In this document: one piece after another, positions 1 through 9,335 of the stretch | Layout of the letters: each line of letters starts with the position of its first letter | How positions within the stretch are numbered: the stretch's first letter is position 1 | Assembly: GCF_010681825.2 (NCBI RefSeq) | Contig: NZ_CP066776.1 | Span: 2,728,001-2,792,000 of the forward strand | From: Sulfuriroseicoccus oceanibius | GTDB lineage: Bacteria; Verrucomicrobiota; Verrucomicrobiia; Verrucomicrobiales; SLCJ01 | Reading direction: 5' to 3' | DNA: 64,000 nt | Position numbers and translations under genes: made by a program | Notes under the pieces: model-generated | Seen by the model: only the letters and a program-made list of their open reading frames with translations | The model's database searches: none | Told to the model about the DNA's origin: nothing

Positions 1-2
1 CG

Positions 3-209
3 CTGGATGCCCTCGTCGATCGCATCAAAACCATTCCGAATCACCTCCTGAATCAGAATCTCGGAATCCCAGAGCAATGTGGGAGCGATTCCGTAGTCCT
101 CGAAATTGAAGCTGACTATCTTCTGGAATCCGGGGACACCGCATCGGCATTCCTGCTTCACGGCAGCCACAACGTCGCTATTGAACTGGTCGGGTGTTAG
201 TGGCTCCAT
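3..209 (-). CDS. Cassette protein of unknown function, 3' end outside window
   Basis: An open frame starts with ATG at 207-209, seven bases after the attC core, and stays open to the window edge (69 codons, beginning MEPLTPDQFNSDVVAAVKQE). It has the spacing to the upstream attC seen for every other cassette gene here. It has two close cysteines (ECRCG) and acidic character. I do not recognise the family. By the rule seen in all other cassettes, its own attC beyond the edge should begin with the core AGCGAAC on the minus strand. Confidence 0.7.
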   Translation of the reverse strand, partial: MEPLTPDQFNSDVVAAVKQECRCGVPGFQKIVSFNFEDYGIAPTLLWDSEILIQEVIRNGFDAIDEGIQ

Positions 210-216
210 TTTCTTC

Positions 217-322
217 AGCGAACGTAAAAGGCCAGACAACCGCGCCTGGCAACGGCGATAGCCTACAGATCTTGTGAAGAACATTCAGCGTTATCGCGGT
301 TGGCTGCGCCGTCTTGTTAGCT
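217..322 (-). repeat. attC site, family A
   Basis: 106-bp attC. In cassette sense the R'' box is AGCTAAC and the R' box GTTCGCT, with the inner pair AACCGCG/CGCGGTT near each end. It holds the stop codon (TAA within R'') of the 317-799 cassette gene. Confidence 0.9.
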
Positions 323-799
323 TGTTGGGTTGGGGGTGTCGAGCCTAAGGCCTCCGACTTTCGGATAAACGTCTGGCGAAACGGCGGGGCCGCTGCGACC
401 AGAGAAATCTGATGGCTCGAGCGAGTCAAGATACTCAAGACATGCGGGCAAAAAGAGATCAATCACCTCTCCCAATTCGATGAATCTGCATCTCCAGAAC
501 AGAATCTTGCTTGATGAGGTATTGCTTTTTGAATCGACCGCTACGCAAAAAAGATCGAACGGATATTCATCAGCGAGATCTAATGGCATTAAGCTCCAAT
601 CTCCTTTGTGATCCATTTCGACGTCGATGATGAGCTTTCGGTCGTCCACGATTCCAGAGACGCTAGCATGGGCATGTCGTCCTCTATGTATCGGCTCCAT
701 CCCTCGCCTCTTTCCGAACGAATGAACCTTGTCTCGGTATGGCTGCATCTGAGCAAGATACCTTTGCTCCTTCTCTAAGATGCGATCTGGATCATCCAT
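317..799 (-). CDS. Cassette-encoded hypothetical protein (160 aa)
   Basis: Starts with ATG seven bases after the attC core and ends with a TAA that forms part of the R'' box of its own attC. The product is soluble and acidic, with no signal peptide. The N-terminus is charged and helical, the middle holds a basic patch (KRRGMEPIHRGRHAH) followed by alternating strand-like segments, and the C-terminus is proline/glycine rich. I do not recognise a family. The stop inside the recombination site shows how compactly these cassettes are built. Confidence 0.75.
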   Translation of the reverse strand: MDDPDRILEKEQRYLAQMQPYRDKVHSFGKRRGMEPIHRGRHAHASVSGIVDDRKLIIDVEMDHKGDWSLMPLDLADEYPFDLFCVAVDSKSNTSSSKILFWRCRFIELGEVIDLFLPACLEYLDSLEPSDFSGRSGPAVSPDVYPKVGGLRLDTPNPTS

Positions 800-805
800 T
801 TCTTG

Positions 806-911
806 AGCTAACGTTTAAGGCCAGACAACCGCGCCTGGCAACGATGAAAGCCTACAGATCTTGCGAACAACATCCAGCGTTATCGCGGTTGGCTGCGCCG
901 ACTTGTTCGGC
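806..911 (-). repeat. attC site, family A
   Basis: 106-bp attC with R'' GCCGAAC and R' GTTAGCT in cassette sense. R'' matches the 5' core of the cassette that holds the 922-1272 gene. The interior is nearly identical to the other family A sites. Confidence 0.9.
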
Positions 912-921
912 TTGTAAGTTT

Positions 922-1272
922 TCAGGTGTGGGTGCTGCCCACAAAGGCAACCTTGTCGCTAGCATCAAACGCCACCAACAGAAATTGTGGGCCAAATCCA
1001 TCAATGCAGTAAGCACGAATGCTGTGGCCCTTCATGACCTCCTCGGATAGCACCTCCGCAACCCAACCTGGCCGATCACTACCGGCGCTGAAATCATACA
1101 TTGGGAGACCTAGAATCGAGTCAACTTCATCGACCGGCATTCCTGGCTCAATTAGTCTCCACGATTCGATCAGCCGTTCTCGAGTAGTCTCGTAGGGGTT
1201 GAAGTGCCAACCTCCAATCCATCCCAATGCTACGCAACAAATTGCCAGTAGAAGGGGAAGGGTAAGTTTCAT
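922..1272 (-). CDS. Cassette-encoded membrane-anchored protein, BamE/SmpA-like motif
   Basis: The 116-residue product starts with a hydrophobic signal or anchor segment (residues 3-22, LTLPLLLAICCVALGWIGGW). The following part contains IEPGMPVDEVDSILGLP, which resembles the G-M-x-x-x-x-V-x-x-x-L-G-x-P signature of SmpA/OmlA/BamE-like small periplasmic domains. There is no lipobox cysteine at the expected place, so it is probably anchored or secreted rather than a lipoprotein. The family match is by motif only; the role is unknown. It fills a cassette between a family A and a family B attC. Confidence 0.7.
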   Translation of the reverse strand: MKLTLPLLLAICCVALGWIGGWHFNPYETTRERLIESWRLIEPGMPVDEVDSILGLPMYDFSAGSDRPGWVAEVLSEEVMKGHSIRAYCIDGFGPQFLLVAFDASDKVAFVGSTHT

Positions 1273-1277
1273 TTTTT

Positions 1278-1402
1278 GCCGAACGTCGAAGTCCTCTCAC
1301 ACCTGCACGAGGGCGAGGCTTCGACAGTGGGTTGATGGTTGAATGATCATGACGGATTGAACTCGCAGCGGGGCAGGTGTTGAGAGCGACGCCTTGTTCG
1401 AC
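1278..1402 (-). repeat. attC site, family B
   Basis: 125-bp attC of the second family. R'' is GTCGAAC and R' GTTCGGC; the inner arms are CTCAACACCTGC and GCAGGTGTGAG, which pair with one extrahelical base. Confidence 0.9.
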
Positions 1403-2272
1403 TTATTGATTCGTGTTCATCAGGCGGAACCGAATGGAAAACTCCTCGCAAAACGCCCACAGGCCTCTCTCATCAGCTTCCAGCACCAACTTCACCGTAG
1501 AGGTGCCATCATGCCCCTGTTCTTTCAGGGCAGTCAGAATCTCGCTCGGATTGCTCTTAATTGATCGCTCAAGATCCACTACGGTCTTCGCGTGCCAGTC
1601 TGCCTGCATCAGCACATCGGAGCCAGTGCCGTCCGACATCATCCCTCCGCCAATTGACATGTAGATTGCTCCATCATCCATTTTGAGGGACGTATTCACG
1701 TGGGCGTCTCTGAGTAACTTAACATCCTCGCTCGTCGGATTATGGGCGATGTCGATCACACCCTTGAGCCGGTAGCGCTCGATAGTGTCTGGCCAGTTCT
1801 TGTGAATAATCTCTACGACCTCTCGATTCGACCAGTTCCCGTGTGGATAAACCTGAATCTCGTAAAGACTAGAGGTCGTCACAAGGGCGAATAATACTGG
1901 TCCAGTCCGCTCTGCGAATCCATCGCCCTCAATGCTGGTCCCCAAGTGCAAATGATACACTCCCCAATCGTTGAGCATGTCATCCTGCTTGCCAGCTTTC
2001 TTCAGTCCGCGGCTAAGATGTGGAGTAAGGTCATCACCCCCAACTATCTTCGCCTCTAGGTCTTCGAGTCCCGCCTGGAGTTCTGAAGGACATGAAAACT
2101 CTGCGGAGCGATGAACCGTTCGAGGGGCTGGTTGAATGCGGCGGCGAAGCGCATTAAAGTAGAGAATGGAGATGTCTTCATGTGTGGAATTGGCAGGGAT
2201 CGTGTAGCCCAATTCCGCAAGGCGTCCGCGCAGGATCTCGATCCAGTCGTCATAGAAGTCCGCGTTTATCAT
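1403..2272 (-). CDS. Cassette-encoded hypothetical protein (289 aa)
   Basis: The ATG at 2270-2272 lies just after the attC core; an in-frame upstream extension would read through the recombination site and is rejected. It is the largest cassette gene here. The N-terminal 55 residues are helical and include an INADFYDDW start. The middle has the motif DDMLNDWGVYHLHLG with an H-x-H pair, followed by a strand-rich region with several tryptophans. There is no signal peptide or membrane segment. I cannot name the family. The H-x-H motif could be catalytic or metal-binding, but this is not established from sequence alone. Confidence 0.75.
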   Translation of the reverse strand: MINADFYDDWIEILRGRLAELGYTIPANSTHEDISILYFNALRRRIQPAPRTVHRSAEFSCPSELQAGLEDLEAKIVGGDDLTPHLSRGLKKAGKQDDMLNDWGVYHLHLGTSIEGDGFAERTGPVLFALVTTSSLYEIQVYPHGNWSNREVVEIIHKNWPDTIERYRLKGVIDIAHNPTSEDVKLLRDAHVNTSLKMDDGAIYMSIGGGMMSDGTGSDVLMQADWHAKTVVDLERSIKSNPSEILTALKEQGHDGTSTVKLVLEADERGLWAFCEEFSIRFRLMNTNQ

Positions 2273-2276
2273 TCTT

Positions 2277-2401
2277 GTCGAACGTCGAAGTCCTCTCACA
2301 CCTGCCCGAGGGCGCGGCTTCGACTGCGGGTTGAGGGTTGAATGGTCATGACGGTTTGAACTCGCGGCGGGGTAGGTGTTGAGAGCGACGCCTTGTTAGC
2401 C
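2277..2401 (-). repeat. attC site, family B
   Basis: 125-bp attC; R'' GGCTAAC, R' GTTCGAC. The stop codon of the barstar-like cassette gene (TAA, 2396-2398) lies inside R''. Confidence 0.9.
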
Positions 2402-2977
2402 CTTGTTTTTGCATCCGTGATCTATCGAGAGTTGTCGCCCCAACTCAAGTGAGTCTGTGAGCGAAGGCTTGCCGATCTCCGACCAGTAGCCATAGCGGGA
2501 TGGATAGGAAATCGGATCGTCATGATACTCCCAGCGCTCGATGCGAACTTCATAGTTTTGGTCATCGCGAAGGGCGATCACGCCTCTGCGAAGGAAATCG
2601 TCTGAGAAAAGAATATCCTTGGTGACCAGCGTGGTAAACGAGGGAGTGGAAATGGTATCTGGAAGCTCCACTCGGCGACCACCAGTCTCAATAAACAGGC
2701 TTGGACGAGCATCGCCTGGCATCTCATGAGTCCATTCGTTCAGGCATCGCAGCAATTTGGCGGCATCGTCAGTCAGGGAGGCAGGGAAACCGTCCCAGTC
2801 CGTTAGCGTCACCTCTGAAACGTCGTCGAATGCCAGCTCCGTAATGCAGTCCCAGAATGCGTCCCAGTTCCGGCCATAGTAATCCGGAAACGCTAGCGCG
2901 TGCGCTAAACGCTCGTGGAGCTCCTCTTTCGATGAAACACCTTCGAGCTGAATTTTGACTGCTCGGGACACGGGCAT
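2396..2977 (-). CDS. Barstar-family ribonuclease inhibitor in a cassette
   Basis: Residues 8-50 match the barstar fold signature: a strand (VKIQLEGV), a helix with SKEELHERLAHAL, then FPDYYGRNWDAFWDCI, where the Y-G-x-N-W-D-A-x-W-D element is the hallmark of the family. Barstar binds and blocks barnase-type RNases in the cytoplasm. The protein is 193 residues against about 90 for classic barstar, so it carries a C-terminal extension (about residues 95-193) of unknown role with many aromatic and charged residues. No barnase-like gene is in this or neighbouring cassettes, so it is an orphan inhibitor, as often seen among integron cassettes and polymorphic-toxin immunity genes. Confidence 0.85.
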   Translation of the reverse strand: MPVSRAVKIQLEGVSSKEELHERLAHALAFPDYYGRNWDAFWDCITELAFDDVSEVTLTDWDGFPASLTDDAAKLLRCLNEWTHEMPGDARPSLFIETGGRRVELPDTISTPSFTTLVTKDILFSDDFLRRGVIALRDDQNYEVRIERWEYHDDPISYPSRYGYWSEIGKPSLTDSLELGRQLSIDHGCKNKG

Positions 2978-2985
2978 TTTTCTTG

Positions 2986-3091
2986 GGCTAACGTAAAAGG
3001 CCAGACAACCGCGCCTAGCAATGATGGAAGCCTACAGATCTTGCGAACAACATCCAGCGTTATCGCGGTTGGCTGCGCCGACTTGTTCTGC
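2986..3091 (-). repeat. attC site, family A
   Basis: 106-bp attC; R'' GCAGAAC, R' GTTAGCC. The interior matches the other family A sites. Confidence 0.9.
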
Positions 3092-3271
3092 TCTTCGATT
3101 CTTGGGCGGGTCTTGGTGAAGAACTCCCGCGACCACCTGTCCCGCAAAAAGCGAGATGATAGAGACGGGGGGAACCGCGATAATTCGATCAACAAGCAAT
3201 AGCTCTATTCGAGTGAACGTCGCCCTGAGGATAATGGCTCTTAATCCATGCCCCAACCGGCGTGCGAGCAA
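3032..3271 (-). CDS. Possible second gene of cassette, doubtful
   Basis: An open frame with only a TTG start reads 79 codons. It has a hydrophobic stretch (IIAVPPVSIISLFAGQVVAG) and ends inside the attC with the tail GAANRDNAGCCSQDL that two other cassette genes also gain from the attC. It may be a small membrane protein, or a chance frame in the 200 bp left between the 58-residue gene and the attC. No start codon other than TTG is available. Confidence 0.25.
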   Translation of the reverse strand: MLARRLGHGLRAIILRATFTRIELLLVDRIIAVPPVSIISLFAGQVVAGVLHQDPPKNRRAEQVGAANRDNAGCCSQDL

Positions 3272-3306
3272 TTGGGGGGACTATTACGCAATTCCTCAAG
3301 ACTGCC

Positions 3307-3483
3307 TTATGTCGGGTCAATCCTCTTAGCCGCCTTTTGGCTATGTCGTTTCGCTCGCTCCTCGGACTTGTATTTGCGCTTTTTGGCGTACTCAACGAGG
3401 TCAGGATTAGTCGAGTCAGATAAATCGTTCTTTGAGTTGTCTCTTGAGATCTGTCTGATGGTTTTGTGAATGCTGCGACTCAT
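3307..3483 (-). CDS. Small basic cassette protein (58 aa)
   Basis: ATG at 3481-3483 sits seven bases from the attC core, the same place as other cassette starts, and the frame runs 58 codons to TAA at 3307-3309. The product is strongly basic and hydrophilic (MSRSIHKTIRQISRDNSKND... ending SQKAAKRIDPT). It looks like a helical nucleic-acid- or ribosome-associated peptide, but no family is recognised. A minimum-length filter of 60 codons would miss it. Confidence 0.6.
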   Translation of the reverse strand: MSRSIHKTIRQISRDNSKNDLSDSTNPDLVEYAKKRKYKSEERAKRHSQKAAKRIDPT

Positions 3484-3489
3484 TTTCTT

Positions 3490-3614
3490 GCAGAACGTCG
3501 AAGGCCTCCTACACCTGCCCGAGGGCGCGGCTTCGACTGTGGGTTGAGGGTTGAATGGCCATGGAAAATTGAACTCGCGGCGGGGCAGGTGTTAGGAGCG
3601 CCGCCTTGTTGTGC
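3490..3614 (-). repeat. attC site, family B
   Basis: 125-bp attC; R'' GCACAAC, R' GTTCTGC. Confidence 0.9.
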
Positions 3615-3622
3615 TTCTTGAT

Positions 3623-4144
3623 TTAGTAGGGAACGGCCTCGCCAGCAAGGAGTTCTCCGGTCTCAAAATCGAGTTCGAATGGTGTATCGGGGGTGACGTT
3701 CGACGTCAGCATCCAGGCTCGTCCCCGCAATCGACCGTCGATCAGTGAGTCAAACTCGATCCCATCCCATGAAATTCGTGGCGTCCGCCAAATCAGGTCA
3801 GCTCTCTCAAAACGGGCGACCCGCAGAGTGTCCGTCAAGGCATACGCACCACTCTCTCCAACGATCCACGAAACCGGAGCCCCCCAATTCTGAGGCAACT
3901 TCTCCTCGACGGCCTTCATCAAGGCATCTTGATCGATTCGAAGCTCGGGATACTCCGTCAAGACGATCTCAAGTAGCTTCCGTGCGTTATCTCCGTCGAT
4001 CACGTCCCGCGAAACGGCGAGGTCGTATCCATCGACCCATCGGCCGTGGTTGAGTTCATCATCAACCAATAGCTGGATCATCTGCGGGAACTTCGATCCG
4101 AAGAACGATTCGAGCTGAACGCTGATGATATCGCGCTTCGTCAT
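3623..4144 (-). CDS. Cassette-encoded hypothetical protein (173 aa)
   Basis: The start is ATG at 4142-4144, because an earlier GTG lies inside the attC core. The product is soluble and acidic. The N-terminal half is helical (VQLESFFGSKFPQMIQLLVD, then RKLLEIVLTEYPELRIDQD) and the C-terminal half strand-rich, ending in a loop with WMLTSNVTPDTPFELDFETG. I do not recognise a family. Its stop is eight bases from the attC, again leaving almost no spacer. Confidence 0.75.
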   Translation of the reverse strand: MTKRDIISVQLESFFGSKFPQMIQLLVDDELNHGRWVDGYDLAVSRDVIDGDNARKLLEIVLTEYPELRIDQDALMKAVEEKLPQNWGAPVSWIVGESGAYALTDTLRVARFERADLIWRTPRISWDGIEFDSLIDGRLRGRAWMLTSNVTPDTPFELDFETGELLAGEAVPY

Positions 4145-4149
4145 TTTCT

Positions 4150-4255
4150 GCACAACGTAAAAGGCCAGACAACCGCGCCTGGCAACTGTGAAAGCCTACA
4201 GATCTTGCGAACAACATCCAGCGTTATCGCGGTTGGCTGCGCCGACTTGTTCTGC
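4150..4255 (-). repeat. attC site, family A
   Basis: 106-bp attC; R'' GCAGAAC, R' GTTGTGC. It also encodes the last residues of the 4196-4639 gene. Confidence 0.9.
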
Positions 4256-4639
4256 CTTTAGGTTCCAACTAGGGTAGACAGTGCTGAGATCTTCTGGAAG
4301 CCAACCAGACTTGGAGAAAAGCTGCTTGCGGCCATCCCATGCGCCGTGCCAAATCCAGGTTTTGCCGTCCGAATCAAACTTCTCTCCGGTCTTTGCTCCC
4401 GTTCTGATCTTGCCGTTGATCACGAGCTCCCCATGAAGCCCTTCGGACCTAGTGCCTTTGGAGATATACCACATTCTCCATTCCCAAAGCTTGCCTGTGC
4501 TATGAAGGTGGGGAGTATTCCGGTCAATCACATGCTTGGATCCACCGTCGTAAGACTTGGGTGGATTGTCTCCATCTGCCGCCAATAGGCCGTATGGCGC
4601 AATCATCGCGAGAAGGATCAACTGAAGCAGCTTCTTCAT
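4196..4639 (-). CDS. Secreted cassette protein with attC-encoded C-terminus
   Basis: ATG at 4637-4639 follows the attC core and begins a clear signal peptide (KKLLQLILLAMIAPYGLLA, cleavage after LLA). The mature part of about 125 residues has two similar strand blocks, WEWRMWYISKGTRSEGLHGEL and WIWHGAWDGRKQLFSKSGW, that recall short W-x-W antiparallel repeats in secreted proteins. The frame has no stop before the attC, so the last 17 or so residues (ending GAANRDNAGCCSQDL) are read from the recombination site. The family is unknown. A longer version starting at 4771 would begin in the previous attC and is rejected. Confidence 0.7.
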   Translation of the reverse strand: MKKLLQLILLAMIAPYGLLAADGDNPPKSYDGGSKHVIDRNTPHLHSTGKLWEWRMWYISKGTRSEGLHGELVINGKIRTGAKTGEKFDSDGKTWIWHGAWDGRKQLFSKSGWLPEDLSTVYPSWNLKAEQVGAANRDNAGCCSQDL

Positions 4640-4644
4640 TTTCG

Positions 4645-4751
4645 GCAGAACGTAAAAGGCCAGACAACCGCGCCTGGCAATAGGGGAGAGCCTACAGATC
4701 TTGCGGACAACATCCAGCGTTATCACGGTTGGCTGCGCCGTCTTGTTGTGT
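4645..4751 (-). repeat. attC site, family A
   Basis: 107-bp attC; R'' ACACAAC, R' GTTCTGC. It carries small sequence differences (GATAACGCT reads GATAACGCT with a T in the inner arm) against its relatives. Confidence 0.85.
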
Positions 4752-4845
4752 AATTGAAGTTCCATTGCCATGTTCGACCAAACCCTGAAGAACGTGCTTC
4801 GACTTCTCGGTTCGATGTCAATGGTTGTTGCTGAGTGGGACCTGC

Positions 4846-5199
4846 CTACACAGTCTCGTTGTGCGACTTCCTCTCTCGTAGGCGATCGTATATTCGTTCA
4901 AGTCGCGGCAAGAACACGATCAAAACAACCGGGCCTATGAAGGCAAAGTTCACCCCTTCCGGAGCAGGGACAAGAGCGCGAACACTCCAGATCGACGCAC
5001 CCAGTAAAAGAAGGAACAGGGTCGTCTTAACCCAATCAAACTTCGATTGGTTGAACCAAGAGAAAACAAAAGCGGCTGGCATTAGGAATAGAGGGCTGAA
5101 GAGTGTTGGAGTAGCGAGCCACTGGGCTACTCCAAATCCTAAGGAAGCGCAAACCATCACGATGAAGGAGGCACCAATGAACTTCGCAAAAGATTTCAT
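4846..5199 (-). CDS. Cassette-encoded small integral membrane protein
   Basis: The 117-residue product is almost entirely hydrophobic, with about four membrane segments: FIGASFIVMVCASLGFGVA, LFSPLFLMPAAFVFSW, TTLFLLLLGASIW and FIGPVVLIVFL. It ends in a basic, cytoplasmic-looking tail (RLERIYDRLRERK). I do not recognise a family. About 95 bp of non-coding cassette DNA lie between its stop and the attC, more than in the neighbouring cassettes. Confidence 0.75.
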   Translation of the reverse strand: MKSFAKFIGASFIVMVCASLGFGVAQWLATPTLFSPLFLMPAAFVFSWFNQSKFDWVKTTLFLLLLGASIWSVRALVPAPEGVNFAFIGPVVLIVFLPRLERIYDRLRERKSHNETV

Positions 5200-5204
5200 T
5201 TTCT

Positions 5205-5329
5205 ACACAACGTCGAAGTCCACCTACGCCTGATCGAGGGCGCGGCTTCGACTGTGGGTTGATGGTTGAATGGTCATGACGGTTTGAACTCGCGGCGGGT
5301 CAGGCGTTAGGTGCGACGCCTTGTTAGCC
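5205..5329 (-). repeat. attC site, family B
   Basis: 125-bp attC; R'' GGCTAAC, R' GTTGTGT. The stop of the TPR lipoprotein gene lies in R''. Confidence 0.9.
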
Positions 5330-5989
5330 CTTGTGGAGGTCGGCCATGTTTTTTGGTTGCGGTCTCACACCGGAGATAACGTCGTCTACAATGTTTCGGA
5401 CCGCTTGTGAGATCTGATCATTAGGTGCCATCTGGAGTGACCGATCGACGGCCTCCTTAGCTTCTACGTTCTTACCACTAATGAGCAATGCTAGTGCGAG
5501 GTTGGCATAGAGCCCAGCATCATCCGGCGTCAGCGTAATTGCATGCTCTGTGGCGCGAACTGCTTCTGCGCCAAGTCCCAGATCTAGACAGGTTGACGCA
5601 TACTCTCGCGCGACGTCTGGATTCTCCTTCTGAATGTCGAATGAGGCCTTGAACTCAGCGTTGGCGGCCTGAGGGTCGCCCAGAACTTGGTATCCCTTGC
5701 CCTTGATCCAGTAAGCTGCCCAGTTCCCTGGATTGTATGCTGTTACGGCATCCAAATCCGCAATGCCTCGTGTAACCTGCTCTATCAACTTCTTGGTAAC
5801 TTTCGGATCGCGGTTAAGGAGCTGCATATGAGGAGAGATCAACTGGCTTCCTCGTTCGTAAATTGCATTGTGATCATCGTCGTTAGTCACGACGACAGCA
5901 ACAGGCTCGGCGTGTTGCTCAGCGGCTTCCTCGTTCTTGCAGCCGAATAGTGTTGAGAAGAGTCCCATGATGATGAGTGCGCGGAGCAT
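5324..5989 (-). CDS. TPR-repeat lipoprotein in a cassette
   Basis: The signal sequence MLRALIIMGLFSTLFGC ends in a lipobox with the acylation cysteine at residue 17, so the product is an exported lipoprotein. A low-complexity acidic linker follows. From about residue 75 to 205 there are tandem tetratricopeptide-like helices, the clearest being NWAAYWIKGKGYQVLGDPQAA, AREYASTCLDLGLGAEA and AGLYANLALALLISGKNVEAK. TPRs bind partner proteins; the partner is not evident. The stop lies inside the R'' box of its attC. Confidence 0.8.
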   Translation of the reverse strand: MLRALIIMGLFSTLFGCKNEEAAEQHAEPVAVVVTNDDDHNAIYERGSQLISPHMQLLNRDPKVTKKLIEQVTRGIADLDAVTAYNPGNWAAYWIKGKGYQVLGDPQAANAEFKASFDIQKENPDVAREYASTCLDLGLGAEAVRATEHAITLTPDDAGLYANLALALLISGKNVEAKEAVDRSLQMAPNDQISQAVRNIVDDVISGVRPQPKNMADLHKG

Positions 5990-5997
5990 TTTTCTTG

Positions 5998-6104
5998 GGC
6001 TAACGTAAAAGGCCAGACAACCGCGCCTGGCAATAGGGGATAGCCTACAGGTCTTGCGAACAACATCCAGCGTTATCGCGGTTGGCTGCGCCGCCTTGTT
6101 GGGC
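5998..6104 (-). repeat. attC site, family A
   Basis: 107-bp attC; R'' GCCCAAC, R' GTTAGCC. It encodes the C-terminal tail of the 6045-6479 gene. Confidence 0.9.
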
Positions 6105-6479
6105 TTGTTTTTCCGGTGAACGGGAAACAGTCTGATTGTGATTCAGTAAGCCACTGCCTTCGAGTAGCTCATCTTCGAGTTCCGCTCTGCAACTCTCTGC
6201 TCGGTAATACATTATGACAGATAGGGCTAAGCCTGCGACGGAAGCTCCGAACATAATGGTATCCATCATTCTGCTCTCCATCACGTGTGGTAATGCGCTT
6301 GAGTGGCTTGCGTATAGGGTCGTGTACGCGTTTATGGCGAACATCAAGAAGCACGGCAGCAACAGAACTTTCTTCTTATGGTCGATTCGAACGATTTCGA
6401 GATCTGATTTATCTGCATGTCCAGCCAGTCGGTAAAGCCTCCGAACTCTCTTGAGGTATCGTGCGTTCTTCGGCTTCAT
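6045..6479 (-). CDS. Cassette-encoded two-helix membrane protein with attC-encoded tail
   Basis: The 144-residue product has a basic N-terminus (residues 1-37), two membrane segments (VLLLPCFLMFAINAYTTLYA and TIMFGASVAGLALSVIMYY) separated by a short loop, and a soluble C-terminal helix. The frame runs into the attC and stops there, giving the ending GAANRDNAGCCSQDL shared with the 4196-4639 product. The family is not recognised. Confidence 0.7.
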   Translation of the reverse strand: MKPKNARYLKRVRRLYRLAGHADKSDLEIVRIDHKKKVLLLPCFLMFAINAYTTLYASHSSALPHVMESRMMDTIMFGASVAGLALSVIMYYRAESCRAELEDELLEGSGLLNHNQTVSRSPEKQAQQGGAANRDNAGCCSQDL

Positions 6480-6487
6480 GGTTCTTT

Positions 6488-6593
6488 GCCCAACGTAAAA
6501 GGCCAGACAACCGCGCCTGGCAACGATGAAAGCCTACAGATCTTGCGAACAACATCCAGCGTTATCGCGGTTGGCTGCGCCGACTTGTTGTGC
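6488..6593 (-). repeat. attC site, family A (first of array)
   Basis: 106-bp attC; R'' GCACAAC, R' GTTGGGC. Its R'' pairs exactly with GTTGTGC at 7053-7059, which therefore marks the 5' edge of the first cassette. Confidence 0.9.
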
Positions 6594-6608
6594 TTGCTGA
6601 TTCCTGAC

Positions 6609-7043
6609 TTAGCTATCGAAGCTCTCGGGCATTGGGTGCCTGCTGCTAATAGGGGAATCATCATAAAAATCGATGATGATCGAGCGTCGCCCCGGAACTG
6701 TTTCCGAGGCTTCGATATTGATCGGATTCCGGTCGAGAGTAAACGAGATGCGCTCTGGAATGGACGTGTCTCCGTGCTTGCGAGGTCTGTCATACTGACG
6801 GGCGCGATCGAAGTAGCCAACCGCAACTTCAACGAACTCTTCTGTAAGGTTGCCAGCAGAGTCTTGAATGGTGAGGATGGCTTTGGCGGTGCTGTCTAGA
6901 TCGACTCGAATATTCCAGCGTTCGTGATCGACATCAGCTTCGATAGCTAGGAAGCCCGGTTGGTCGCTGACTCTGACTACAGGACATTCGGAGGTGGTAC
7001 CCAGCAACGCGTTGACCCTTGATCGTAGGACTCCTGAAGTCAT
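6609..7043 (-). CDS. First-cassette hypothetical protein (144 aa)
   Basis: The ATG at 7041-7043 is chosen; an upstream TTG lies inside the core site. The product is soluble with no signal peptide. It has strand-like segments (FLAIEADVDHERWNIRVDL, KAILTIQDSAGNLTEEFVEV) and a C-terminal RSIIIDFYDDSPI. No family is recognised. As the cassette next to the 5' end of the array, it would be the best expressed if a Pc promoter lies at 7060-7300, but no convincing promoter is visible. Confidence 0.75.
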   Translation of the reverse strand: MTSGVLRSRVNALLGTTSECPVVRVSDQPGFLAIEADVDHERWNIRVDLDSTAKAILTIQDSAGNLTEEFVEVAVGYFDRARQYDRPRKHGDTSIPERISFTLDRNPINIEASETVPGRRSIIIDFYDDSPISSRHPMPESFDS

Positions 7044-7052
7044 GGATATTTG

Positions 7053-7076
7053 GCACAACAGTATTAGTTTACGCCC
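7053..7076 (-). other. Putative attI-like junction at 5' end of array
   Basis: On the minus strand GTTGTGC (7059-7053) is the exact partner of the R'' box of the first attC, so the first cassette was inserted here. The sequence upstream (GGGCGTAAACTAATACT) is not attC-like. It resembles the L-box plus spacer arrangement of known attI sites, where a TAAAAC-type motif faces a GTT core. This assignment is by layout and weak similarity. Confidence 0.5.
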
Positions 7077-7619
7077 ACGGGCTCAATATCGGGTGAGCTT
7101 GGGGCGGGTGGTTCTTGGGAGGGAGTGTGGGCGGCAGGGCTGATGGAGTCAAGGGGTGTGGCGCGCTTGATGTCAATTTTCAAGTGTTAGAAAATACTTC
7201 ATATCGATTGACCATCCGGACAGGTATCGGATCTGATATCGCGGTGGAATGATGAAGGGGTTGAGCAACCACGCTTCAGGCGGGGTTTGACTCTAACCCT
7301 GAATTTGCTCACGCCCCCGCCTTCACTGTGGTGGGAAAATGAGTTTAACAAACCCGTCAAGGTTAATCAGGGCCAAGTGACGGCCCCAACAAGAGGTAAC
7401 CCGGGGCGTGAGTTCACCGGACTGGGAGTGGAGAGGTTCCCTCCTAAAGCAAAGCAAATCGCTGGGCGGCGATCCACTTGCCCCCCTCCCCCACGAGAAA
7501 GAAACAAAAGTGAGGAGAATAATCCGGCGGGCAGCGGCATCTGGGGGTGGGCGCGATCGGTTGACCTCGGCGCGGTCACCTCTACCTTGTGCCACGGCCA
7601 ACCCGCCTGATCCACCACC
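7060..7619. other. Gap of 560 bp: no integrase, possible structured RNA
   Basis: No frame in this gap looks like an integron integrase or any known protein. The left part is AT-richer than the rest. The right part holds nested inverted repeats: CTCACGCCCC (7308-7317) with GGGGCGTGAG (7403-7412), GGGTTTG (7284-7290) with CAAACCC (7347-7353), and GGGCC/GGCCC around 7370-7387. This could be a structured leader of the following gene set on the plus strand, or an unrelated RNA. It does not match tmRNA, RNase P, SRP or 6S RNA as far as I can see. Confidence 0.4.
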
Positions 7620-8207
7620 ATGAGCGAATCCAAAGACCAACCCACCCACAGCGAAGACCTGCCGCCCCTTCACGGCGGTATGACGATGACCGAGGTTTTG
7701 TCGGCGTTCCCCGGAGCACAGCGCGCGCTTTTTGCCGCGTTTCACATTGGCGGCTGCCAGGCCTGCGGGTTCCAGCCGGGTGAGACTTTGGCACAGGTGT
7801 GCGATCGCAATGAGGACGTGACGCTCGACGAGGCGATCAAAACCATCGTCGAGAACCATCAGAGCGATGTCTCGTTGTCGATTTCCCCTCAGGAACTTCA
7901 GACAGCGCTGGCCGGTGATGACGCTCCGTCGCTCGTCGACATCCGCACGCACGAGGAATTCGACGCCGTGAAGATCGAGGGCGCGCTTTTCTTTTCCGAG
8001 AACCTGCAGCAGGAGATTTTCGGAACATGGCCTAAAGAGTCGCCGATTGTAGTGTATGATCATACCGGCAACCGCGCACTGGACGCCGCAGCCTATTTCA
8101 TCGGCCACGGGTTTTCCAACACGCGGGCACTGACCGGCGGCATCGACGCCTGGGCCAAAGAGGTCGACAAGAACATCCCACGCTACAAGCTCGAGTTCGA
8201 CGCCTAA
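7620..8207 (+). CDS. Redox-disulfide (DUF1858-like) and rhodanese-like fusion protein
   Basis: Residues 21-80 match the short redox-disulfide domain that carries a C-x-x-C pair (GGCQACGF, C46 and C49). Residues 88-190 form a rhodanese-like domain, with LVDIRTHEEF and the final GGIDAW typical of the fold. In the rhodanese active loop the catalytic cysteine is replaced: IVVYDHTGNR has Asp147 where Cys is expected, so sulfurtransfer by this domain is unlikely. The next genes encode an NifU-like scaffold and SufT, which suggests a role in Fe-S assembly, perhaps sulfur or redox handling through C46/C49. That role is inferred from context. Confidence 0.85.
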   Translation: MSESKDQPTHSEDLPPLHGGMTMTEVLSAFPGAQRALFAAFHIGGCQACGFQPGETLAQVCDRNEDVTLDEAIKTIVENHQSDVSLSISPQELQTALAGDDAPSLVDIRTHEEFDAVKIEGALFFSENLQQEIFGTWPKESPIVVYDHTGNRALDAAAYFIGHGFSNTRALTGGIDAWAKEVDKNIPRYKLEFDA

Positions 8208-8239
8208 GCCCCCCACCCCACAATAATTTCAGATCAGAT

Positions 8240-8740
8240 ATGGACGAAAAGAAGCTCAACGACGCCATCGCCAACCCACAAAACCTGGGCGAGATGGCCG
8301 ATGCCGACAGTGTGGGCACCGTGGGATCGCCGGACTGCGGCGACATGGTGCGCATGTGGCTCAAGTTCAAAGAAGAAGACGGACGCAAGGTGATCGACCG
8401 CGCGTCGTTCCAGTCATTTGGCTGCCAGACGGCCATTGCTGTGGCCTCGATGGCGACTGAAATGCTCAAGGGAAAAACCGTCGATGAAGCACGCCAGCTC
8501 AAGGCCGAAGAAATGACCGGCGACATCGGAGCGCTGCCACCGATGAAAATTCACTGTGGCCAGCTGGTGGAAGGCGCATTGAAAAGCGCTCTCGACAACG
8601 ACGGCACCGAAGCCCCGGCACCAGCGCCGGAATCACCGGCCACCAACGCCCCCACACTGGCCGACAGCTTGCGCAGCCAACCCGCAACCGGAAAAGGCAA
8701 AATTCGCATTGTCAAACTGACCGACGACAACGATCAATAA
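8240..8740 (+). CDS. NifU/IscU-type Fe-S cluster assembly scaffold
   Basis: The first 120 residues match the NifU_N/IscU scaffold, on which [2Fe-2S] clusters are built before transfer to apoproteins. The three ligand cysteines are visible: C33 in GSPDCGD, with Asp35 of the usual C-G-D motif, C62 in SFGCQTA and C106 in IHCGQL. A proline/alanine-rich linker and a short basic tail (KGKIRIVKL) follow, making the protein longer (166 aa) than IscU (about 130). It lies 32 bp after the rhodanese-like gene and 46 bp before sufT, a likely operon. No cysteine desulfurase gene is nearby, so the sulfur donor is encoded elsewhere. Confidence 0.9.
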   Translation: MDEKKLNDAIANPQNLGEMADADSVGTVGSPDCGDMVRMWLKFKEEDGRKVIDRASFQSFGCQTAIAVASMATEMLKGKTVDEARQLKAEEMTGDIGALPPMKIHCGQLVEGALKSALDNDGTEAPAPAPESPATNAPTLADSLRSQPATGKGKIRIVKLTDDNDQ

Positions 8741-8786
8741 TCCAACTCAGGAGCCCGAAACTCCATCAATCCAACCAATTTACGCT

Positions 8787-9335
8787 ATGCAACACGGAGA
8801 AGTCGAAATCAGCCGCGAAGTCGAAGCTATTCAGATCCCAAGCGGTGAGCGCATCACGCTTCCTGCCGGATTGAACGTGATCATCACCCAGTCGCTCGGC
8901 GGCACCTACACCGTCGCCACCACGCAGGGACTCGCCCGCATTTCCGAAAAAGATGCCGATGCACTCGGGATCGACCCGAACGCCGCCAACGAAGCCGCGG
9001 AAGCCGCTGCAGACCTCGATCCTGACGATCTGGTCGGCCACGTCTGGGCCCAGCTCAAAAATGTCTACGACCCGGAAATCCCGGTCAACATCGTCGACCT
9101 CGGCTTGGTCTACGACTGCTTCATCGATGAAGAAGGCGACAAAAAGACCGCAATGGTCAAGATGACCCTAACCGCTCCGGGATGTGGCATGGGCCCGACC
9201 ATCGCTGCCGACGCACAGAGCCGCATCATGACCATCAACGGCATCGAAGACGCCCATGTCGACCTCGTTTGGGAGCCAGCCTGGAACCAGGACATGATCT
9301 CCGAAGAAGGAAAAATGAAGCTCGGCATGATCTAA
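8787..9335 (+). CDS. sufT: Fe-S assembly factor SufT (MIP18/DUF59 family)
   Basis: The C-terminal half (about residues 82-182) is a MIP18-family domain with DPEIPVNIVDLGLVY (D95-P99 being the conserved D-P-E-I-P), TAPGCGMG with the conserved C133, and the family ending WEPAW...DMISEEGKMKLGM. The N-terminal 70 residues are the extra domain seen in the long SufT form, with a glycine-rich strand. SufT helps mature Fe-S proteins, mainly under high Fe-S demand. It ends the Fe-S gene set begun at 7620. There is no clear Shine-Dalgarno sequence upstream. Confidence 0.92.
   Translation: MQHGEVEISREVEAIQIPSGERITLPAGLNVIITQSLGGTYTVATTQGLARISEKDADALGIDPNAANEAAEAAADLDPDDLVGHVWAQLKNVYDPEIPVNIVDLGLVYDCFIDEEGDKKTAMVKMTLTAPGCGMGPTIAADAQSRIMTINGIEDAHVDLVWEPAWNQDMISEEGKMKLGMI

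Follow-up and report, generated by a model that had tools for sequence, protein, structure and literature searches.

An integrase-less integron array led by a copy of a resident attI in Sulfuriroseicoccus oceanibius

The stretch of the S. oceanibius genome considered here (the window: 64,000 bases, C1:2728001-2792000, window position 1 being C1:2728001) opens with an integron cassette array that is headed by an attI site but has no integrase gene beside it. The locus is probably an integron platform without an integrase of its own, served in trans by integrases encoded elsewhere in the genome, which is the simplest way to account for it given that a matching integrase is present. The acting enzyme would most likely be IntI2, from a complete integron (I2) 240 kb away whose attI is shared with the window array, while IntI1, from a second complete integron (I1), perhaps acts on it too. 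Cassette exchange across the loci is strongly supported by sequence comparison, and a single integrase appears to act at several sites of gene capture in this genome.

Architecture of the array and its attI

The genome consists of one contig of 3,496,488 bases. Eleven attC sites in the same orientation occupy window positions 217-6593, with the cassette open reading frames (ORFs) on the minus strand. An earlier sequence-only reading of this DNA had described eleven intact attC in a single orientation, and these are upheld by the finder control, by stem covariation and by the match of each cassette start to its own R'' box. The array is incomplete in the window and runs left to a total of 16 attC and 17 cassettes; five attC lie left of the window edge, the leftmost at L009 14998-15056 (C1:2722998-2723056). 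In composition, the array is an attI followed by 16 attC-bearing cassettes and one truncated cassette; beyond the leftmost attC, a membrane-protein cassette has no detectable attC. Its features in window coordinates, with the adjoining genes, are:

7059-7168, minus: attI, copy of the I2 attI; crossover GTT at 7059-7057
7122-7154, minus: conserved block CCTTGACYCCATNNGCCCTN5CCACACTCC within the attI region, candidate cassette promoter (Pc)
6494-7058, minus: cassette 1; ORF 6609-7043, no family
6488-6593, minus: attC 1, family A
6004-6493, minus: cassette 2; ORF 6045-6479, no family
5998-6104, minus: attC 2, family A
5211-6003, minus: cassette 3; TPR lipoprotein-like ORF 5324-5989 (Pfam TPR)
5205-5329, minus: attC 3, family B
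4651-5210, minus: cassette 4; membrane protein ORF 4846-5199, ~97% identical to I1 cassette 39
4645-4751, minus: attC 4, family A
4156-4650, minus: cassette 5; ~97-98% identical to I2 cassette 36
4150-4255, minus: attC 5, family A
3496-4155, minus: cassette 6; ORF 3623-4144, no family
3490-3614, minus: attC 6, family B
2992-3495, minus: cassette 7; ORF 3307-3483, 504/504 identical to I2 cassette 6, crossover to crossover
2986-3091, minus: attC 7, family A
2283-2991, minus: cassette 8; Barstar-family protein 2396-2977 (Pfam PF01337, E 2.9e-21)
2277-2401, minus: attC 8, family B
1284-2282, minus: cassette 9; PD-T4-7-like candidate anti-phage protein 1403-2272 (PADLOC, E 1.6e-41)
1278-1402, minus: attC 9, family B
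812-1283, minus: cassette 10; ORF 922-1272, 95% identical to I2 cassette 12, ~96% to I1 (blastn)
806-911, minus: attC 10, family A
223-811, minus: cassette 11; ORF 317-799, no family
217-322, minus: attC 11, family A
1-222, minus: cassette 12, cut by the window edge; array runs left to C1:2722998
7620-9335, plus: flanking housekeeping genes (rhodanese protein, NifU-like scaffold, SufT)

Window 7168-7046 (minus strand) is ~93% identical, over ~110-120 bp, to C1:2975688-2975808, which lies between the integrase gene and the first cassette of I2. No difference separates the two sites over the final ~55 bases leading up to the crossover GTT, and divergence sets in right after it, each first cassette having a start paired with its own R'' (GTTGTGC/GCACAAC in the window, GTTCTCC/GGAGAAC in I2). 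The genome holds only two copies of the I2-type attI, and a DNA search of 56 relatives returned only one weak 34-bp match, at chance level. When the attI core was compared with the relatives of IntI2 and with the integrons of G001, a genome of the same genus, scores were mostly those of chance, with two marginal partial alignments (L026, L032). The conserved block within the attI region has three perfect matches in the genome, in the window, in I2 and at an isolated site at 1717 kb, and a search of 56 other genomes that allowed up to three mismatches gave no match; that it may be Pc is a guess.

Because of the attI at 7059-7168, the window array is an integron platform minus intI and not a bare attC cluster; the sequence-only reading had missed this attI. 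What else had been said of this end stands: it carries no integrase, the nearest ones being 240 kb and 459 kb distant, and housekeeping Fe-S genes adjoin it from 7620. A tblastn search of the window and of the 40 kb left of it gave no intI and no intI remnant in either orientation (E>=0.16). The array has the two or more attC without a nearby integron integrase that define a cluster of attC sites lacking an integron integrase (CALIN); of the hallmarks of a complete integron, it has the attI at the 5' end but not the adjacent intI, and for a Pc active at attI the conserved block is a candidate.

attC families and cassette exchange

Family A accounts for seven of the window attC (~106 nt) and family B for four (125 nt). 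Detection relied on a custom finder, which gives 0.1 false matches per 20 kb of shuffled sequence. The sites show R''/R' boxes and a conserved folded stem of variable sequence, and in the family B stem compensatory changes are seen in 20 of 27 pairs. The two observations that the sequence-only reading had named as fatal to it, an intI in or beside the array and attC that fail to fold, were not made: no intI lies near the array in either arrangement, and covariation backs the fold.

The start of each cassette (GTTRRRY) matches its own R'' (RYYYAAC) at a mean of 3.94 of 4 variable bases, and the match is perfect for 15 of the 16; the R' and R'' boxes currently paired within an attC agree at 2.12 of 4, no better than chance (2.05 for shuffled pairings). 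Judged from sequence, such pairing is the mark of cassettes moved as circles cut at G|TT. The AAC/GTT cores are kept in all 16 attC. Covariance models built from the attC families and searched across the genome matched the I1 array, the I2 array, the window array and a few isolated places, and the three arrays evidently have one attC pool in common.

The identity between cassette 7 and I2 cassette 6 sits in a 509-base exact match with ACGTT at both ends. Neighbouring cassettes are unrelated, the flanks are ~52% alike, and the attC upstream of the shared cassette is of family B in the window and of family A in I2. Homologous recombination between attC repeats is disfavoured as the source of the identical cassette, since it needs two-sided homology and both the upstream attC families and the flanks differ. 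Cassettes 4, 5 and 10 of the window array are 95-97% alike in I1 or I2, and I1 and I2 have seven cassette pairs in common. Sharing bounded by crossovers would be the expected trace of integrase-mediated movement between loci. The earlier suggestion that an integrase elsewhere serves the array in trans is supported by the two intact integrases, the shared attC families and the shared cassettes, one of them without a single mismatch.

Complete integrons and their integrases

A genome-wide search for intI with comparison of attC families, proposed as a check in the sequence-only reading, yields two intact, full-length integron integrases, both with arrays of the same attC families. The intI1 gene (C1:2267125-2268069, plus strand) runs in the same direction as the I1 array of 58 attC, and intI2 (C1:2974296-2975207, minus strand) is divergent from the I2 array of 46 attC. 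Their products score 363 and 327 bits against TIGR02249 (curated cut-off 265), can be aligned over their length with VchIntIA (structure 2a3v), and are full-length members of the integron-integrase family with its extra domain. The same two layouts coexist in G001 (L057, L059) as here (L011, L012). Both integrase frames (L011 6699-8072, L012 9278-10528) have an N-terminal extension of ~100-140 residues with no Pfam match, and frames of similar length occur in many relatives, though not in all. Near both intI genes and a site at 1595 kb lies a dispersed repeat, GGACCGCCGGTTTCCCATCCGGCCACC..GGAGCGCAGCGACCAC, found at L011 6100-6600, at L012 8890-8960 and upstream of the attI in L073.

The perfect palindrome TGTTC-N4-GAACA occurs only four times in the genome (C1:2180105, 2266692, 2893389 and 2975522), preceding, in this order, an imuA/imuB-like operon, intI1, lexA and intI2. 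We take it to be the verrucomicrobial LexA motif published by Erill et al. 2016. Both integrases look SOS-controlled on this evidence.

Other attI sites without integrase

The I1 attI core, ACCCCYNNNNTAAKAAAACTGTT, has four matches in the genome within two mismatches, at I1, C1:1595372, C1:1717457 and C1:1981345, and a reversed control pattern has none. At each of the last three (L073, L072, L075), one or two isolated cassettes follow immediately, and these were found independently via their attC; intI or its remnants were looked for at these satellite sites and none was found. The sites look old, since several of their attC have a crossover core degraded from GTT to GCT or ACT. At 1717 kb, an I2-type upstream block is joined to an I1-type core. 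Two further isolated cassettes have no attI (C1:1281041) or at most an attI remnant (C1:1443183).

In G001 the I1 core occurs twice, on contig C35 beside intI and at C81:86495-86517 (L101) without it. At the latter, ~170 bases are homologous and the alignment starts ~20 bases inside the 3' end of intI; loss of intI rather than copying of attI is the favoured, putative origin. The attC model search found none at C81, where GGCTAAC at the end of the first ORF is complementary to the GTTAGCC of its start. An apparent transposase ORF follows after ~1-2 kb. The window attI may have arisen by intI loss from a second I2-type integron or by copying of the attI region.

It is conceivable, if a little less than probable, that the chromosome carries a network operated by two integrases under SOS control, with attI-led stations numbering at least six: I1, I2, the window array and the three satellite sites (1595, 1717 and 1981 kb). 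Of these six, four lack intI. In such a decentralised integron, captured genes would be spread over several expression sites, and integrase-less stations would have arisen repeatedly in the genus, as on C81 of G001.

Proposed mechanism and rival explanations

In the proposed scheme, DNA damage would lead LexA to release intI1 and intI2, and integrase would then act on the three arrays, folding the bottom strands of their attC sites and cutting them. Circular cassettes would be excised and then inserted at any matching attI, that of the window included, and the conserved attI block would supply the promoter for transcription of attI-proximal cassettes. Both the SOS timing and present-day capture at the window attI are predictions from sequence.

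Several points weigh against this scheme. The few differences between the window and I2 attI fall in two clusters and are too few to show selection, and attI identity by itself would be no proof of function. A sigma-70 consensus promoter was looked for in the attI region and none was found. Moreover, the sharing proves that the window attC joined the exchange, yet the array could be only a donor. This last point leads to the main rival, a fossil able to donate cassettes: a second I2-type integron would have lost intI long ago, leaving an inert attI from which cassettes depart in trans and at which none are captured. The last cassette of the array, in which no attC was detected, is consistent with decay, as are the degenerate attC cores at the I1-type satellite sites, but intact cores throughout the window array (16 of 16), the perfect start matches of 15 of its 16 cassettes and the recent exchange indicated by the 504-bp identity make a fossil unlikely.

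Repeated attI and attC sequences could also mislead an assembler into parting the array from its integrase. Such an artefact is very improbable, as the genome is a single contig and there are two distinguishable I2-type attI to one intI2, so that no re-joining puts intI2 beside both. Least credible, and close to dismissed, is an ordinary CALIN seeded by off-target insertion of cassettes at a chromosomal attG-like site. Off-target insertion at attG is documented in E. coli (PMC12444791), and the isolated cassette at C1:1281041, without an attI-like start, fits such an origin; for the window array it is contradicted by the ~110 bp upstream of the crossover, which at 93% identity to a true attI extend far beyond an attG core.

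Relation to known systems

According to PMC12444791, CALINs can be mobilised in trans. With at least two tandem attC and no nearby intI, the window array is a CALIN by the definition of IntegronFinder (PMC9024848), but it begins with a copy of the attI of a resident integron. Three features exceed that definition: the copied attI, the cassette shared without a mismatch, and the attI stations scattered through the genome with no intI. Complete sedentary chromosomal integrons (I1, I2, Vibrio-type superintegrons) likewise have an attI, a large array, few attC families and cassette genes of mostly unknown function; the window array differs in having no intI within 240 kb. In the Xanthomonas ilvD integrons with broken intI, the attI-side platform also outlives the integrase, but there the integrase decayed, whereas the present genome encodes intact matching integrases at other loci and its arrays still have cassettes in common. 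The Delta-attI cassettes of mobile integrons also place attI sequence away from intI, yet as fragments at cassette ends inside an array (PMC12901181); here whole attI regions lead separate loci. In the papers searched there was no description of the three features named above, nor of duplicated, orphan or multiple attI sites, which is not proof that none exists.

An attC cluster without an integrase is usually classed as a degraded integron or as the product of off-target insertion. The window cluster starts with the attI of a resident integron that appears to work, and it has exchanged an identical cassette with that integron, so that attI platforms can, it seems, be multiplied and run in trans. 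Detection of attI by IntegronFinder is limited to class 1 (PMC9024848); intI-less sites led by other attI would therefore be filed as plain CALINs, and multiplied platforms would be missed by survey tools with this blind spot. The question raised is how many CALINs start with a copy of a resident attI.

Surroundings and cassette content

No Rfam family was matched in the window, and the spacer at 7169-7619 is unique, a genome search having found no second copy. At the corresponding Fe-S locus of G001 and G002 the window array is not there; other genes lie upstream, and attC were not found. No obvious toxin partner was seen for the Barstar-family protein of cassette 8. Left of the window edge, a 2.9-kb cassette (L009 15004-17874), unusually large for this array, encodes an amidase and an OprB-type porin.
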